A stretch of DNA of 64,000 bases, from assembly GCF_015670745.1 (NCBI RefSeq), contig NZ_JADPCH010000001.1, positions 124,001 to 188,000 on the forward strand. Direction: 5' to 3'. The notes below the pieces were generated by a model that saw only the letters and a program-made list of their open reading frames with translations, did not search any database and had not been told where the DNA came from. The DNA is from Collinsella aerofaciens. GTDB taxonomy: Bacteria; Actinomycetota; Coriobacteriia; Coriobacteriales; Coriobacteriaceae. Shown here piece after piece: positions 50,939 to 57,309 of this stretch. The first letter of the stretch is position 1, and each line of letters begins with the position of its first letter. A program made the translations under genes and the position numbers.

Positions 50939-50976
50939 AGACGGCCGTCCCTCTCTATCACGCGATATGCGAAATT

Positions 50977-51068
50977 ACGCCATTCTCAATGCTGATTTTA
51001 CGCTACTTTCAATGTAGTTTTTACGCCATGACAGATGTAGTTTTTACGCCATTTTCATTGAAGGTTTC
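50977..51068. repeat. Four 23-bp direct repeats (iterons) upstream of the DUF4143 ATPase
   Basis: Units 50977-50999, 51000-51022, 51023-51045 and 51046-51068 are each exactly 23 bases. They start ACGCYA and mostly end TGTAGTTTTT or similar; a partial fifth ACGCT follows at 51069. They lie just upstream of the ATPase start, and a TAAAAT hexamer on the minus strand falls within them. Autoregulatory binding sites are likely. Confidence 0.8.
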
Positions 51069-51123
51069 ACGCTTGGCATCCTTAGCGCGACCCATTCCGA
51101 GCATCACATCAGAGCGCGCTTGG

Positions 51124-52515
51124 TTATCTCCGCTCGCACATCTCGGCAAACGAAATCAGCTTGGTATCCCCCCTGTTCGCCGCAGCTTCCTGACATCCTT
51201 GCGTAAAGCCGCGCTTCGAGAAGATCACGTAGCTTTTATGCTGCCGTCTAAAGAGCTCGCTTCGGTGCACGAGCTTTCGCAGCACGTCTTCGCCCACCGG
51301 CTCATTGCGCCATTTGCACTCCGCAAACAGCGCAGTGCCCTCGCCATCGTCAACAATCAAGTCGATTTCTTCCTGCGTATGCGTGCGATTATCCGTCCCC
51401 CACCAGCGCCCGACGCTCGCCGGAACCACATCGAGCTGGCCCGCGCGCGCGAGTTCGTACACGTATTGTCTGCATATAAGCTCAAAGACCGTACCCATGT
51501 AATCCGATACGTGCGGCTCAATGCGCTTATATGCCATCTCGGCCATATCGTTTTGAATCAGCCCGATGTTCTGCGGCACAAACTTGTACCAGAACCTAAA
51601 CATCTGGTCGCTCAGCAGATACACGGCTCGCTTATTGCTCGTCTCGTTTAGGGGCAGCTCGCGCTCGACAATCCCAAGCGACGCCAGCTTATCCACATAG
51701 CTCTTTACGTTGCTCGCAGGGATCCCCGTAGAGCTCGCAATCTCCGAGATCTTCGAGCGCCCCTGGGCAATTGCTTGCACGATCGCATCATATTGCTCGG
51801 GATTGCGGCACTCTTGCAACAGCAGGTTACTCGGCTCCTCAAAGAGATAGCCCGTAGGAGTAAGAAAAAGACGTTTGACGTTGTCCTTGAGCGGCGCAGC
51901 AGGATCGACTTTCTCGATATATGCAGGAATGCCGCCCGTCATGCCATAGCAAACCGCAGCGTCTTCGCGACCCATGCTCTGCCACAGGCCGAGGGTCGTC
52001 GTAAAATCGAGCGGCATGATCTTAAACTGGGCCGTTCGCCTACCGTATAGTGGGCTCTCGTAGCCCAGCACCTGCTCTTCCATGAACGAAAGCGACGACC
52101 CGCACAGGATAAGCATGAGCTTGGTCTCTTTGTACAAGTGATCGATCTTGTCTTGCAGCAACGAGCTGATCTCGGGATTCGATTGGGCGAGATAGGGATA
52201 CTCGTCAATCACGACAATCAAACGTTCCGTGCGAGCCATGGTGGCCAATGCATCGAACGCCTCGTCAAAACTACGAAACGACACACCTGCAGCACCAACC
52301 GAACCCGCAAGTATCGCCTGGCTAAAGCCGTGCAGGTTTGCCTCCGCATTGGTACGACGAGCTTGAAAGTAAATAGCCTTCTTGCCTTGGATGAACTCTG
52401 TGATAAGGCGCGTTTTGCCCACACGACGACGGCCGTAAATCACAGGCATCTCAAAGGAGTCCGTGCCATACAGTCGATTGAGCTCGGACATTTCCGCCGT
52501 TCTTCCGATAAACAT
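51124..52515 (-). CDS. Archaeal-type ATPase with DUF234 nuclease-like C-terminus
   Basis: 463 residues. Walker A is GRRRVGKT at 28-35 and Walker B LIVVIDEYPYL near 105-115. A central winged-helix region (SKISEIASSTGIPASNVKSY) follows. The C-terminal DUF234-like domain has EEIDLIVDDGEG and LFAECKWRNE near 377-400, a PD-(D/E)xK-type core. Its function is unknown; homologues occur in archaea and gut bacteria. The ATG at 52515 follows AAGGAAGG. A perfect 25-bp-arm inverted repeat lies directly before the ribosome binding site and includes a TATAAT hexamer. It shares direction with the DUF4143 ATPase but has its own control region. Confidence 0.85.
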   Translation of the reverse strand: MFIGRTAEMSELNRLYGTDSFEMPVIYGRRRVGKTRLITEFIQGKKAIYFQARRTNAEANLHGFSQAILAGSVGAAGVSFRSFDEAFDALATMARTERLIVVIDEYPYLAQSNPEISSLLQDKIDHLYKETKLMLILCGSSLSFMEEQVLGYESPLYGRRTAQFKIMPLDFTTTLGLWQSMGREDAAVCYGMTGGIPAYIEKVDPAAPLKDNVKRLFLTPTGYLFEEPSNLLLQECRNPEQYDAIVQAIAQGRSKISEIASSTGIPASNVKSYVDKLASLGIVERELPLNETSNKRAVYLLSDQMFRFWYKFVPQNIGLIQNDMAEMAYKRIEPHVSDYMGTVFELICRQYVYELARAGQLDVVPASVGRWWGTDNRTHTQEEIDLIVDDGEGTALFAECKWRNEPVGEDVLRKLVHRSELFRRQHKSYVIFSKRGFTQGCQEAAANRGDTKLISFAEMCERR

Positions 52516-52530
52516 AGGGCCATCCTTCCT

Positions 52531-52586
52531 TTACGTTATAGCTAGCTATATTATACCTTCCTATAATATAGCTAGCTATAACGTAA
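52531..52586. promoter_or_regulatory. Perfect 25-bp-arm inverted repeat over the ATPase promoter
   Basis: Arms 52531-52555 and 52562-52586 are exact reverse complements around a 6-base spacer. Each arm contains the self-complementary TATAGCTAGCTATA. On the minus strand TATAAT (52555-52550) falls at the inner edge of an arm, so a protein bound here would cover the promoter. The element is AT-rich in a GC-rich genome. Confidence 0.8.
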
Positions 52587-52641: not shown

Positions 52642-52749
52642 GGAAAATGTATCCCGTTCTGGAGCCAAAAACTGGGCCGTAGTTTCCGCCAAACATGCCA
52701 TCCGGAAAGCGCGTCCCGTTCCGAGCGGCAATTCCGGGTCACGGTTTCC
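52642..52749. repeat. Two units of the 46-bp hairpin / 62-bp period family
   Basis: Units 52642-52687 and 52704-52749 are each 46 bases, start GGAAA and end TTTCC, with (G/A)TCCC and GGG toward the centre. Their starts are 62 bases apart. The same unit length and period occur in the larger array at 54055-54409, beyond the AbiEi-like gene. Confidence 0.8.
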
Positions 52750-53045: not shown

Positions 53046-54044
53046 ATGACCCATTGTAATGACCAGCTCATCGACCAACTGCTCACTCAAGCCGAACAAG
53101 AGGGGCGCTGTCTGATTCCCCCGAGCACGGCGATCCGAAAAGCGCTCCTTCGGCGCACCGGCGGCACGGTTGTCTCGCCCATGCCGGGGTTGTTTGCGCG
53201 AAAAACACGCTGGGATGAACTCAACCGAGCGCAACGCCATTGCGAGATTATCCGCGCCCTTGCGATCATCCATCCCGATTGGACGTTCTGCTCGTTTTCG
53301 GCAGCTTGCCTGCTGGGGCTCGAGGTCTCGTGGCGACACCTGAACGTCGTGCATGTTTGCAGCTCGACAAAGCCGTCGGCTCGTCCGGGCGCACATATTC
53401 AGCGACACCAGATTGAGCCGGCCGGAGCAATACGCAGGGCCGGCATATCGGTAACGTCGCCCATCCAAACGGCCACAGATTGCCTGCTGCAAACTGGTTT
53501 TGCCGACGGCATGCCCATTGCCGATTCGGCGATCTCAAAGCTCGACGTTGCGCCGGAACAGCTGATGGAGGCCGTCGAGCAACGAGTGACCGCCCGCAAT
53601 GATCGCGCGATTCGCACCGCCCTCACAACGCTTCGATATGCCGACGCCCGCGCCGAGAGCGGCGGGGAATCGGTCGCCCGAGCCGTCATGATCGAGACGG
53701 GCTTTGCACCCGACTGGCTTCAATACGAGCTGACGGACCCCTTCGATTCGGCCAAGCCCATACGAACGGACTTTGCCTGGGAGCGCCAGGCGCGGGAACT
53801 CACGCTGGGCGAGCTCGACGGGCTCATCAAATATACCGACCAGACCATGCTGGCCGGACGCACCACCGCCGAGGCGCTCGTTGCCGAACGACAGCGCGAG
53901 GCGCACCTATCGCTCTACGGTCACCCTCTGCTGCGCTTTACCATGAACGAGGTCCGCTCGACAGGAATGCTCGCCAAAAAGCTGCAGACGGCAGGCATCC
54001 GGCAGACCGCGCTGCCGACATGGCTCAACGAGGTAGACCTGTAG
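53046..54044 (+). CDS. AbiEi-like protein with a restriction-endonuclease-fold C-terminus
   Basis: 332 residues. The N-terminal 80 residues resemble the AbiEi-type winged helix (LIDQLLTQAEQEGR, GGTVVSPMPGLFARK). The middle matches actinobacterial AbiEi-like or DUF559-type proteins. The C-terminal segment, with GGESVARAVMIE (about 202), RTDFAWE (about 239) and LGELDGLIKYTD (about 254), fits an E-D-ExD/K nuclease core. AbiEi proteins are usually antitoxins of type IV toxin-antitoxin pairs, but no AbiEii nucleotidyltransferase is next to it. It may be a lone defence-type nuclease or regulator. AAGGAGG eight bases before the ATG fixes the start. Hairpin repeats flank it on both sides. Confidence 0.72.
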   Translation: MTHCNDQLIDQLLTQAEQEGRCLIPPSTAIRKALLRRTGGTVVSPMPGLFARKTRWDELNRAQRHCEIIRALAIIHPDWTFCSFSAACLLGLEVSWRHLNVVHVCSSTKPSARPGAHIQRHQIEPAGAIRRAGISVTSPIQTATDCLLQTGFADGMPIADSAISKLDVAPEQLMEAVEQRVTARNDRAIRTALTTLRYADARAESGGESVARAVMIETGFAPDWLQYELTDPFDSAKPIRTDFAWERQARELTLGELDGLIKYTDQTMLAGRTTAEALVAERQREAHLSLYGHPLLRFTMNEVRSTGMLAKKLQTAGIRQTALPTWLNEVDL

Positions 54045-54054
54045 GAGCTGCTAA

Positions 54055-54409
54055 GCCACGCATCGCCAGATCGCATCCCCCTATCTGGGCCGCGTTTTCC
54101 CAACGACCACGCCAACGGAAAGCGCGTCCTAGCCTGGACGCTCAAAACGGGATGCACTTTCCGGATGGCGGGCCTAGCGGAAAGCGTGTCCCGGAATCAG
54201 GTCTCGGAACGGGTCGTGCTTTCCGGTTGAGTCCTTCAGCGGAAACCGCATCCCGGAATAAACGCTCAAACTGGGATGCACTTTCCAAACGGCCGGCCAG
54301 CGGAAAACGAATCCCATTCTGAGCGTCGAATCCGGGATACAGTTTCCGTTTGAAGCCCCGTCTGGAAAGTACGTCCCATTCTGGAGCCGAAATCTGGGAC
54401 GCAGCTTCC
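54055..54409. repeat. Tandem array of 46-bp hairpins, 62-bp period
   Basis: Five clear units, 54117-54162, 54179-54224, 54241-54286, 54302-54347 and 54364-54409, are all 46 bases. A degenerate sixth lies at 54055-54100. Start-to-start distances are 62, 62, 62, 61 and 62. Units begin GGAAA, end TTCC, and carry a TCCC and GGG inner pair, so each can fold. The interior resembles TTCTGAGCG-N2-AA. The array fills most of the space between the AbiEi-like and xanthine dehydrogenase genes. Confidence 0.85.
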
Positions 54410-54531: not shown

Positions 54532-57309
54532 CTACCCGCGGCGACGGGCGCGGCTGTACGGCGTATCCACCATGGGCAGATCCGGACGCAGCTTGCCGTC
54601 GAATGCGCGATAGGCGTTCTGCACGGCGGGCGCCGTGGGGATCGTTGCGATCTCGCCAATGCCCTTGCCGCCATATGCCACGGGCAGCAGCTCGTCCTTC
54701 TCCACGTAAATGGCGTGGATATCCGGAATCTCGGGCGCACGGAACAGCCCGAGCGTACCGTACCTTGCCTGGGGTACGCAGTCCTTGAGCGGCCAGTCCT
54801 CGGTAAGCGCATAGCCCATACCCATGAGCACGCCACCTTCGATCTGACCTTGGATGGAGATGGGGTTGACCACCTTGCCGGAATCGTGCGCGGCATAAAC
54901 CTCGCTCACGCGACCGTCATCATCCAAAATGACCACATGTGTGGCAAAGCCGTAGCAGATGTGGCTCTTGGGATTGGGAACGTCGGCGCCCAGCTTGTCG
55001 GTCGGCTCCAGGTACACGTAGCCAAACTCGCATCCCTCGAGCGCCTTGATGGCGGCCGCGGGATCCTGAGGATGCATACCCTGGCCGGCGACGAGCTCCT
55101 GCGTGTGCAGCTGATAGGCGCGACCGTCGTCGTACTCGATCTTGACGCCGTCGCCATGCGCATTCACGGGAGCGGCGGGCGCAGACTTGCCGGCCTCGAT
55201 ATCAAGCATGGCATCGCGCAGCAGGAAGGCGGCACCGCGCACGGCCTCGCCGGTCACGACCGTCTGACGCGAACCAGACGTGGTGCCGGAGTCGGGAGCG
55301 TTCTCGGTGGAGCACTCGCCGTTGGCGATGCAGCGAAGCGGCAGGCCGCATGCCTCGGCAACGTCTTGCAAAAAGACGGTGTTACAGCCCTGGCCAATGT
55401 CGGACGTGGCGGCATAGACCACGGCCGCGCCGTTCTCGATGCGAATCTTGCAGCGGCCGGCATCGGGCAGGCCCACGCCCACGCCGGCGTTCTTCATGGC
55501 GCAGGCAATGCCGGCGTGTCCGGGATGCGCATAGTAGGCATCCTTGACCTCGAGCAGTGTCTCCTTCAGCGCCGTGGAGCAGTCGGCAATCTGACCGTTG
55601 GGCAAAACCTCGCCCGGCTCGATGGCGTTGCGGTAGCGAATCTCCCACGGATCCAGGCCGACCTTCTCGGCCAGCAGGTCGATTAGGCTCTCGAGCGCAA
55701 ACTCGGACTGGCAGACGCCAAAGCCACGGTACGCGCCGGCGGGCGGGTTGTTGGTGTAGTAGCCATAACCGCGAATGTCGGTGTTCTGGTACTTGTAGGG
55801 GCCGACAGCATGCGTGCAAGCGCGCTCGAGCACCGGGCCGCACAGCGACGCGTAGGCGCCGGTATCAAAGTTGATCTCGCAGTCCAGGCCGGTAAAGTTG
55901 CCCTCGGCGTCGCAGCCCAGTGTAAAGGTGCCGTCCATGGCGTGGCGCTTGGGATGAAACGCGAGCGACTCGGCGCGCGTGAGCTTGCACTTCACAGGAC
56001 GCTGGAACTTATATGCGGCGAGCGCGGCCAGGTGTTGGATGGACACATCCTCCTTGCCGCCAAAGCCGCCACCCACGAGCATGGTCTCGACGACCACGCG
56101 CTCGGGCTCGTTGTCCCAGCCAAACATGTGGGCACACTCTTTGCGCGTATCGTAGGCACCCTGGTCGGTCGACTGCACCTTGACGCCGTTCTTGTACGGG
56201 AAGGCAACGGCGCACTCGGGCTCCAAGAAGGCATGCTCGGTAAAGGGCGTGGTAAAGCGCTGCGTCACGGTAAACGCGCTCTCTGCCAGCGCCTTGGCGG
56301 CGTCGCCGCGCGTCACGTGACGGCTCTGGCACACGTTGTCCTTGAGCTCCACCGTGTTGCCAAAGGCAAAGAAACTGTCATGCAGGCGCGGCGCGTCGGC
56401 GGCCTTGGCCTCGGCGATGTTGCGCACGGGCTCCAGAGGCTCGTAATCGATCTTTACGAGCTTCTTGGCCTTCTCGAGCGTCGCCTCGTCCTCGGCGACT
56501 ACCAAAACGATGGCGTCGCCCACGCAGCGGGTGATATCGCCCTGGGCGATCATGACGTCCCAGTCCTGGATAAGGTGGCCGACCTGGTTGACCGGCACGT
56601 CCTCGGCTCGCAGGATGCCCACCACACCGGGCAGGGCCTCGGCCTTGGAGGTGTCGATGGAGAGCACGCGGGCGCGCGGATACTTGGAGCGAACGGCGCT
56701 GGCATAGGTCAGGCCCGGCTGATCGAGCTCGTCGATGTCGTCGGGATACTTGCCCTCGCCGAGCACCTTCCTGCGCACGTCGATACGGAAGGCGCGCTTG
56801 CCCACGCCGTAGTCATCGCCGCGCTCCAGATCCTCGTCGATCTGCTTTTCGCCACGGAGCACCGCAGCTGCCAGCGAGATGCCCTCGATAATCTTCTTGT
56901 AGCCGGTGCAACGGCAGACATTGCCGCGGATGGCGTACTTGATCTGCTCCTCGGTGGGCTCGGGGTCCTCGGCGATGAGCGCTGCACCCGCCATGACCAT
57001 GCCGGGGATGCAAAAGCCGCACTGCACGGCGCCCACGGCGCCAAAGGCGTACACGAAGGCCTCGCGCACGTCCTCGGGCAGGCCCTCGACGGTCACGATG
57101 TTGCGGCCGGCGGCAAGCGCGGTGGTCAGTACGCACGCCTTGACGGCCGCACCGTCCACATGGATGGTGCAGGTGCCGCAGGCGCCCTCGGAGCAGCCGT
57201 CCTTGGCGGAGTGAATGTGCAGGTCGTCGCGCAGATAGCGCAGCAGTGGTTTATTCTCCGTCGTCGTGTGCTCGACACCGTTAACGGTAAAAGTGAATTC
57301 CTGTGCCAT
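54532..57309 (-). CDS. Selenium-dependent xanthine dehydrogenase, fused [2Fe-2S] and molybdenum subunits
   Basis: 925 residues; oxidises hypoxanthine/xanthine using a molybdenum cofactor. The N-terminus is a two-cluster [2Fe-2S] domain: Cys39, Cys44, Cys47, Cys59 (plant-type) and Cys97, Cys100, Cys132, Cys134. The molybdenum domain has GGGFGGKE near 415, NPPAGAYRGFG near 520 and the catalytic glutamate in GGKGIGE near 882. There is no FAD domain, and no separate FAD subunit is encoded nearby; electrons probably pass to the ferredoxin and YgfK genes just upstream. Maturation genes xdhC, yqeB and yqeC lie at 33-36 kb, which supports a selenium-containing cofactor. No in-frame UGA is involved. 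Confidence 0.93.
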   Translation of the reverse strand: MAQEFTFTVNGVEHTTTENKPLLRYLRDDLHIHSAKDGCSEGACGTCTIHVDGAAVKACVLTTALAAGRNIVTVEGLPEDVREAFVYAFGAVGAVQCGFCIPGMVMAGAALIAEDPEPTEEQIKYAIRGNVCRCTGYKKIIEGISLAAAVLRGEKQIDEDLERGDDYGVGKRAFRIDVRRKVLGEGKYPDDIDELDQPGLTYASAVRSKYPRARVLSIDTSKAEALPGVVGILRAEDVPVNQVGHLIQDWDVMIAQGDITRCVGDAIVLVVAEDEATLEKAKKLVKIDYEPLEPVRNIAEAKAADAPRLHDSFFAFGNTVELKDNVCQSRHVTRGDAAKALAESAFTVTQRFTTPFTEHAFLEPECAVAFPYKNGVKVQSTDQGAYDTRKECAHMFGWDNEPERVVVETMLVGGGFGGKEDVSIQHLAALAAYKFQRPVKCKLTRAESLAFHPKRHAMDGTFTLGCDAEGNFTGLDCEINFDTGAYASLCGPVLERACTHAVGPYKYQNTDIRGYGYYTNNPPAGAYRGFGVCQSEFALESLIDLLAEKVGLDPWEIRYRNAIEPGEVLPNGQIADCSTALKETLLEVKDAYYAHPGHAGIACAMKNAGVGVGLPDAGRCKIRIENGAAVVYAATSDIGQGCNTVFLQDVAEACGLPLRCIANGECSTENAPDSGTTSGSRQTVVTGEAVRGAAFLLRDAMLDIEAGKSAPAAPVNAHGDGVKIEYDDGRAYQLHTQELVAGQGMHPQDPAAAIKALEGCEFGYVYLEPTDKLGADVPNPKSHICYGFATHVVILDDDGRVSEVYAAHDSGKVVNPISIQGQIEGGVLMGMGYALTEDWPLKDCVPQARYGTLGLFRAPEIPDIHAIYVEKDELLPVAYGGKGIGEIATIPTAPAVQNAYRAFDGKLRPDLPMVDTPYSRARRRG

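Follow-up and report, generated by a model that had tools for sequence, protein, structure and literature searches.

The array of 46-bp units beside an AbiEi-like gene of Collinsella aerofaciens raises the question of whether such units act as folded RNA, as part of a defence-type locus, or as DNA sites recognised by a protein. A first-pass annotation had read them as hairpins whose arms change jointly so that pairing is retained. The units were followed in a window of 64,000 nucleotides (the whole stretch of DNA analysed, contig NZ_JADPCH010000001.1, to which all positions below refer unless a locus is named), in the rest of this genome, and across the genus and its order.

Array at the Focal Locus

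The five clear units of the first-pass annotation are all present, as are the two copies that it placed on the far side of the AbiEi-like gene (Table 1). Of the spacings that it gave (62, 62, 62, 61, and 62 bp), those of 62, 62, 61, and 62 bp hold among the five full units, but the sixth, degenerate unit, assigned to 54055–54100, is only half kept, its right half being retained and its left half gone. A terminal half-unit is also present at the orthologous array of other species. The unit pattern matches the window 18 times against 5.1 expected matches, and none of 100 shuffles of the window reaches 18.

Table 1. Units of the array and neighbouring genes, with positions within the window.
Feature	Position	Strand	Remarks
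Upstream unit a	52642–52687		GGAAAATGTATCCC...; same unit found in several species
Upstream unit b	52704–52749
Lone right half-site GGGCCGCGTTTTCC	54087–54100		Terminal half-unit of the array; left half absent beside the AbiEi-like stop codon
Main array unit 1	54117–54162
Main array unit 2	54179–54224
Main array unit 3	54241–54286
Main array unit 4	54302–54347
Main array unit 5	54364–54409		Right arm is a CTTCC variant
ATPase_2/DUF234 gene (PADLOC PDC-S27-like)	51124–52515	-	Divergent from the AbiEi-like gene; neighbour only
AbiEi-like gene	53046–54044	+	Between both arrays; neighbour, not partner
Xanthine dehydrogenase-like gene (MoCoBD, Fer2)	54532–57309	-	Convergent with the AbiEi-like gene; anchor of the orthologous locus

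Other repeats lie close by. An inverted repeat whose two 25-bp arms match perfectly (TTACGTTATAGCTAGCTATATTATA), together with three 15-bp tandem copies, occupies 52531–52586 immediately upstream of the ATPase_2/DUF234 gene and looks like an operator, and a tandem repeat of 23 bp in 4.3 copies is found at 50975–51072, upstream of an AAA_14/DUF4143 gene. At the focal locus of three genomes, at least one unit is reverse-complemented within the array (unit B in G000, the genome studied here, and unit F in G006 and G019), which suggests that inversions occur inside arrays.

Distribution and Gene Context

The genome as a whole gave 49 forward and 50 reverse pattern matches, compared with 1 and 2 for a reversed control. 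These correspond to about 13 intergenic clusters with 45–49 units in total; 45 units, 1 to 7 per cluster, were retrieved. Among 44 other Collinsella species, 23 carry 18–54 units each and 21 carry none, so the copy count across the genus proposed in the first-pass annotation yields many copies in arrays in this genome and in 23 other species. Outside Collinsella, only four of the 299 genomes surveyed across the order have matches, all isolated, and IMG/VR returned five contigs with a single unit each. The units match no Rfam family, and no earlier description of these Collinsella repeats was found in the open-access literature. The view of a regular, conserved, many-copy Collinsella element that has no Rfam match and is not CRISPR-like was thus sound. 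One strong half-site (GGAAACCGAATCCCATTAG) stands alone on the minus strand of contig C39 of this genome (L138:15020), remote from any array and at the edge of the stretch examined.

All 13 clusters of this genome are intergenic according to a home-made gene caller, and none of 113 sampled arrays falls inside a called gene. Gaps between convergent genes are enriched: 11 of 24 distinct arrays lie in one, whereas 67 of the 415 gaps taken as background are of this kind (p = 0.001).

Conserved Core and Helical Phasing

The conserved core of the unit reads GGAAA-N5-TCCC / GGGA-N5-TTTCC and is 8 times less variable than the linkers: among orthologous units in 82 clusters, core positions vary in 1.9% of clusters and linkers in 15.6%, a comparison biased by the retrieval of units through their core, though up to four mismatches were allowed. 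Outside the core, likeness is 0.56 within one array and 0.53 between arrays; units of the same array are thus no more alike there than units of different arrays, which indicates that the units are old. The period is equally strict. Of 279 spacings, 277 measure 61 or 62 bp (236 of 62 bp, 41 of 61 bp, and 2 of other lengths), which is about six helical turns. The half-sites are 32 bp apart inside the unit (328 of ~335 cases) and 30 or 29 bp apart across the linker; at 10.3–10.5 bp per turn, each step would cover about three helical turns, so that every site faces one way. Since arrays may start or stop with a half-unit, the elementary part is the half-site. Both the conserved sequence and this geometry fit duplex sites occupied along a single helix face and not a folded RNA; we are highly confident that the arrays consist of double-stranded DNA sites that are both conserved and phased.

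RAYT-C, a Candidate Partner

The alternation of inverted intergenic sites led us to consider REP/RAYT systems. A Y1_Tnp search returned RAYT relatives in most Collinsella, among them a single-copy RAYT of the TIRYT subclass with a Y1 domain and a C-terminal helix-turn-helix (HTH), here named RAYT-C (G000:C33:20129-20938). Its orthologues (76–100% identity) occur in 23 of the 24 array carriers and in none of the 21 non-carriers, where nothing exceeds 42%, and none was found in other genera of the family. This distribution coincides with a single clade; the co-occurrence therefore counts as one evolutionary contrast and not as 23 independent ones, and other clade-specific genes would show the same distribution. 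The sole carrier without RAYT-C, G032, also lacks both genes that flank it, which is compatible with an assembly gap or a larger deletion.

The predicted fold of RAYT-C has its best match in 4ER8, a RAYT in complex with a REP hairpin, at a Foldseek E of 1e-6 and with a Z of 15.3 and an rmsd of 2.5 over 146. The protein scores 40 bits against PF01797 (Y1_Tnp; cut-off 23) and 47 bits against NF047646, below the cut-off of 80; matches of the C-terminal HTH are mostly under their cut-offs, and phmmer found no match among PDB sequences. As modelled, the architecture, a Y1 RAYT fold with a C-terminal HTH, is that of subclass 2.1, the TIRYTs. The catalytic residues are largely lost. In the class 2 Y---NP motif, the catalytic Tyr117 is replaced by Ser in 19 of 23 orthologues, including that of this genome, and Asn121 is mostly Asp. 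The HUH motif reads HVR in six orthologues and (Y/C/H)VD in five others; the RAYT-C of this genome retains HVH but has S117 and D121, and all catalytic motifs (HUH and Y...NP) are intact only in G002, G003, G013, and G036. In other RAYTs, mutation of this tyrosine abolishes cleavage (PMC8266576). Median dN/dS is 0.30 in the 19 orthologues that lost the tyrosine (0.20 in the Y1 core) and 0.10 in the four that kept it; RAYT-C persists under purifying selection despite the loss.

Units are absent within 1.5 kb of RAYT-C in every genome examined, so the arrays lack a defining feature of a TIR family, the presence of the repeat beside its transposase gene. A conserved half-site-like motif in the RAYT-C leader (GGCAAGCAGATCCC), considered as an autoregulatory site, was rejected because its score does not exceed the background (108 of 296,000 positions are as good or better).

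Inverted repeats with GGGACAG or GGGGACG, the TIR type of the literature, flank several further RAYTs of Collinsella. In three genomes without the present arrays (G043, G042, and G038), a separate family of the form GGGGACGTGTTC...CAACCC, or closely similar to it, has 23–101 dispersed copies with a GGGTTG/CAACCC stem, often as inverted pairs or in 36-bp tandem steps (seen also at L218), and it flanks the TIRYT in G043, as GGGGACGTGTTCC...CAACCC, and in G042. TIRYT-linked repeat families thus exist in Collinsella. The repeat core of the G043 family, GGGACGTGTTCC, resembles the array half-site GGGAYGYRSTTTCC. The second RAYT of the genome studied here (L175, G000:C25:4042-4770) is broken by an in-frame TAG and has intact relatives of 282 aa in other species; GGGGACAGACTTA repeats flank both this gene and its relative at L186.

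The arrays may instead be phased sites of an unrelated clade-specific DNA-binding protein, a regulator or nucleoid protein, with which RAYT-C shares only its clade. The DNA-level evidence names no protein and the RAYT-C locus is without units, both of which suit such a reading; yet no candidate was found, and the intergenic, convergent, alternating-inverted layout and the TIR precedent within the genus fit RAYT/TIRYT repeats. We regard an unrelated binder as a serious possibility but lean against it.

A mobile family of REP/BIME or MITE-like type that survives only as neutral, functionless relics would account for the loss of the transposase tyrosine in most species and for the varying array beside the xanthine dehydrogenase-like gene, which in the carriers examined has 1 to 8 units, with or without the AbiEi-like gene. 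Neutral decay would not, however, leave the core and the 61/62-bp period in place after the rest had diverged, and functionless remains are very improbable. Decayed transposon ends, the outcome named in the first-pass annotation as fatal to its reading, describe the units only in part: a likeness to the repeat families of RAYT/TIRYT transposases exists, but the sites show conservation, not decay.

Pairing between the Arms

For the 45 units of this genome, Watson–Crick pairs were counted at variable positions and compared with the expectation from column composition. Pairing is close to chance at positions 6/41 (14 pairs seen, 14.3 expected), 8/39 (27 and 26.3), 9/38 (27 and 27.2), 10/37 (26 and 22.5), and 15/32 (19 and 22.4), and it falls below expectation at 17/30 (12 against 21.9) and 18/29 (5 against 14.3). 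Only two excesses were seen. That at 7/40 (28 against 21.3, p = 0.017) failed to recur in the 37-cluster set; the other concerns 23/24, neighbouring bases in the middle of the unit that could not form a pair within a hairpin. The anti-pairing at 17/30 and 18/29 arises because each unit joins two unlike halves, one carrying TCCCRGAAT and the other TCCCRNTYTGAG; the oriented consensus reads GGAAASYGCRTCCCGGAATNNNGCSCTCARAMYGGGATGCASTTTCC. In a shifted register, a CTCA/TGAG stem around the half-site, of the kind seen in the repeats beside other Collinsella RAYTs, gave a signal that is weak and unremarkable.

Joint arm changes, which the first-pass annotation had reported, are thus not seen; the covariation check that it proposed lends no support, and its reading of a structure maintained by covariation was mistaken. 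On this test an RNA hairpin with covarying arms is rejected. More broadly, units transcribed as hairpins (terminator, stabiliser, or toxin-binding RNA) would agree with the near-palindromic form of every unit and with the preference of arrays for the 3' ends of convergent genes, but the anti-covariation, the lack of a convincing covarying stem in the shifted register, and the missing Rfam match make a structured RNA very improbable.

A CRISPR-like, integron-like, or toxin–antitoxin RNA array tied to the AbiEi-like gene, the link drawn in the first-pass annotation from arrays that do flank it in this genome, is barely credible and is refuted as a general explanation, with the gene ruled out as partner, because its orthologue is found in just 11 of 24 array-bearing genomes, about 12 other loci have arrays, and the focal array also stands where the gene is missing.

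Comparison with Known Systems

Plasmid centromere arrays such as sopC are tandem inverted-repeat sites with fixed spacing. The Collinsella arrays share this arrangement but are dispersed over ~13 chromosomal loci. CRISPR arrays have near-identical direct repeats and unique spacers, whereas the present units form inverted pairs and vary freely beyond the core. Further parallels are among RAYT-associated repeats. TIR families associated with TIRYTs (RAYT subclass 2.1; PMC3733652, PMC6006769) go with a RAYT that has Y1 and a C-terminal HTH, are dispersed and mainly intergenic, like the arrays described here, and occur as dimers or clusters beside TIRYT genes (PMC3733652). GGGA at the core start is the sole part of the core in common. 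The differences are that the half-site YGGGAYGYRSTTTCC has neither the GGGGWSAS consensus nor a GTAG-type (REP) tag, that RAYT-C is not flanked by the repeat and in most species is without its catalytic tyrosine, and that the arrays have a rigid 62-bp phase and no conserved stem. The absence of pairing constraint argues against binding and cutting of these sites in a folded, single-stranded form.

REP/BIME and REPIN-RAYT systems of Proteobacteria likewise combine alternating inverted intergenic sites with a single-copy RAYT, but the Collinsella arrays are without the GTAG tag and without hairpin conservation, their copies are highly diverged outside the core, and their helical spacing is rigid. 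BIMEs (PMC2817692) are intergenic inverted-repeat clusters able to serve as binding sites for host proteins; compared with the platforms described there, the candidate binder here is the RAYT relative itself.

A Proposed Role for the Arrays

In the explanation that we favour, each 46-bp unit would consist of two inverted double-stranded recognition sites of roughly 14–19 bp each. Because successive half-sites point in opposite directions and are set alternately 32 and 30 bp apart, each step being about three turns, all of them would share a single helix face, and this layout could let DNA-bound proteins load in a row, cooperatively. The arrays would most likely have descended from a dispersed repeat family of RAYT-C; that descent, taken together with RAYT-C as the candidate binder, we hold at about even chances. 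RAYT-C, which lost the catalytic tyrosine in most species and the HUH histidines in some and yet is retained under selection, would now bind the sites through its HTH without cutting them. The arrays may thereby have a role at intergenic, often convergent, gene ends, where the protein could be a regulator or an organiser of DNA. The fullest form of this proposal, in which an exapted RAYT no longer cuts but, as an HTH protein, loads cooperatively onto helically phased arrays at roughly a dozen chromosomal positions and forms a transposase-derived insulator, gene-end, or chromosome-organising system, is speculative and, as a whole, rather unlikely.

The long persistence of single-copy RAYTs and their dispersed sites in genomes is a standing question. 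In a lineage with apparent loss of catalysis in most species, in which protein and sites are still selected, it becomes possible to test directly whether they serve something other than transposition. A common gut genus offers for this a dense set of phased natural arrays of putative binding sites, for which we found no prior description. If the proposal is true, an apparatus of transposition would have been turned into a DNA-binding system in gut Collinsella.
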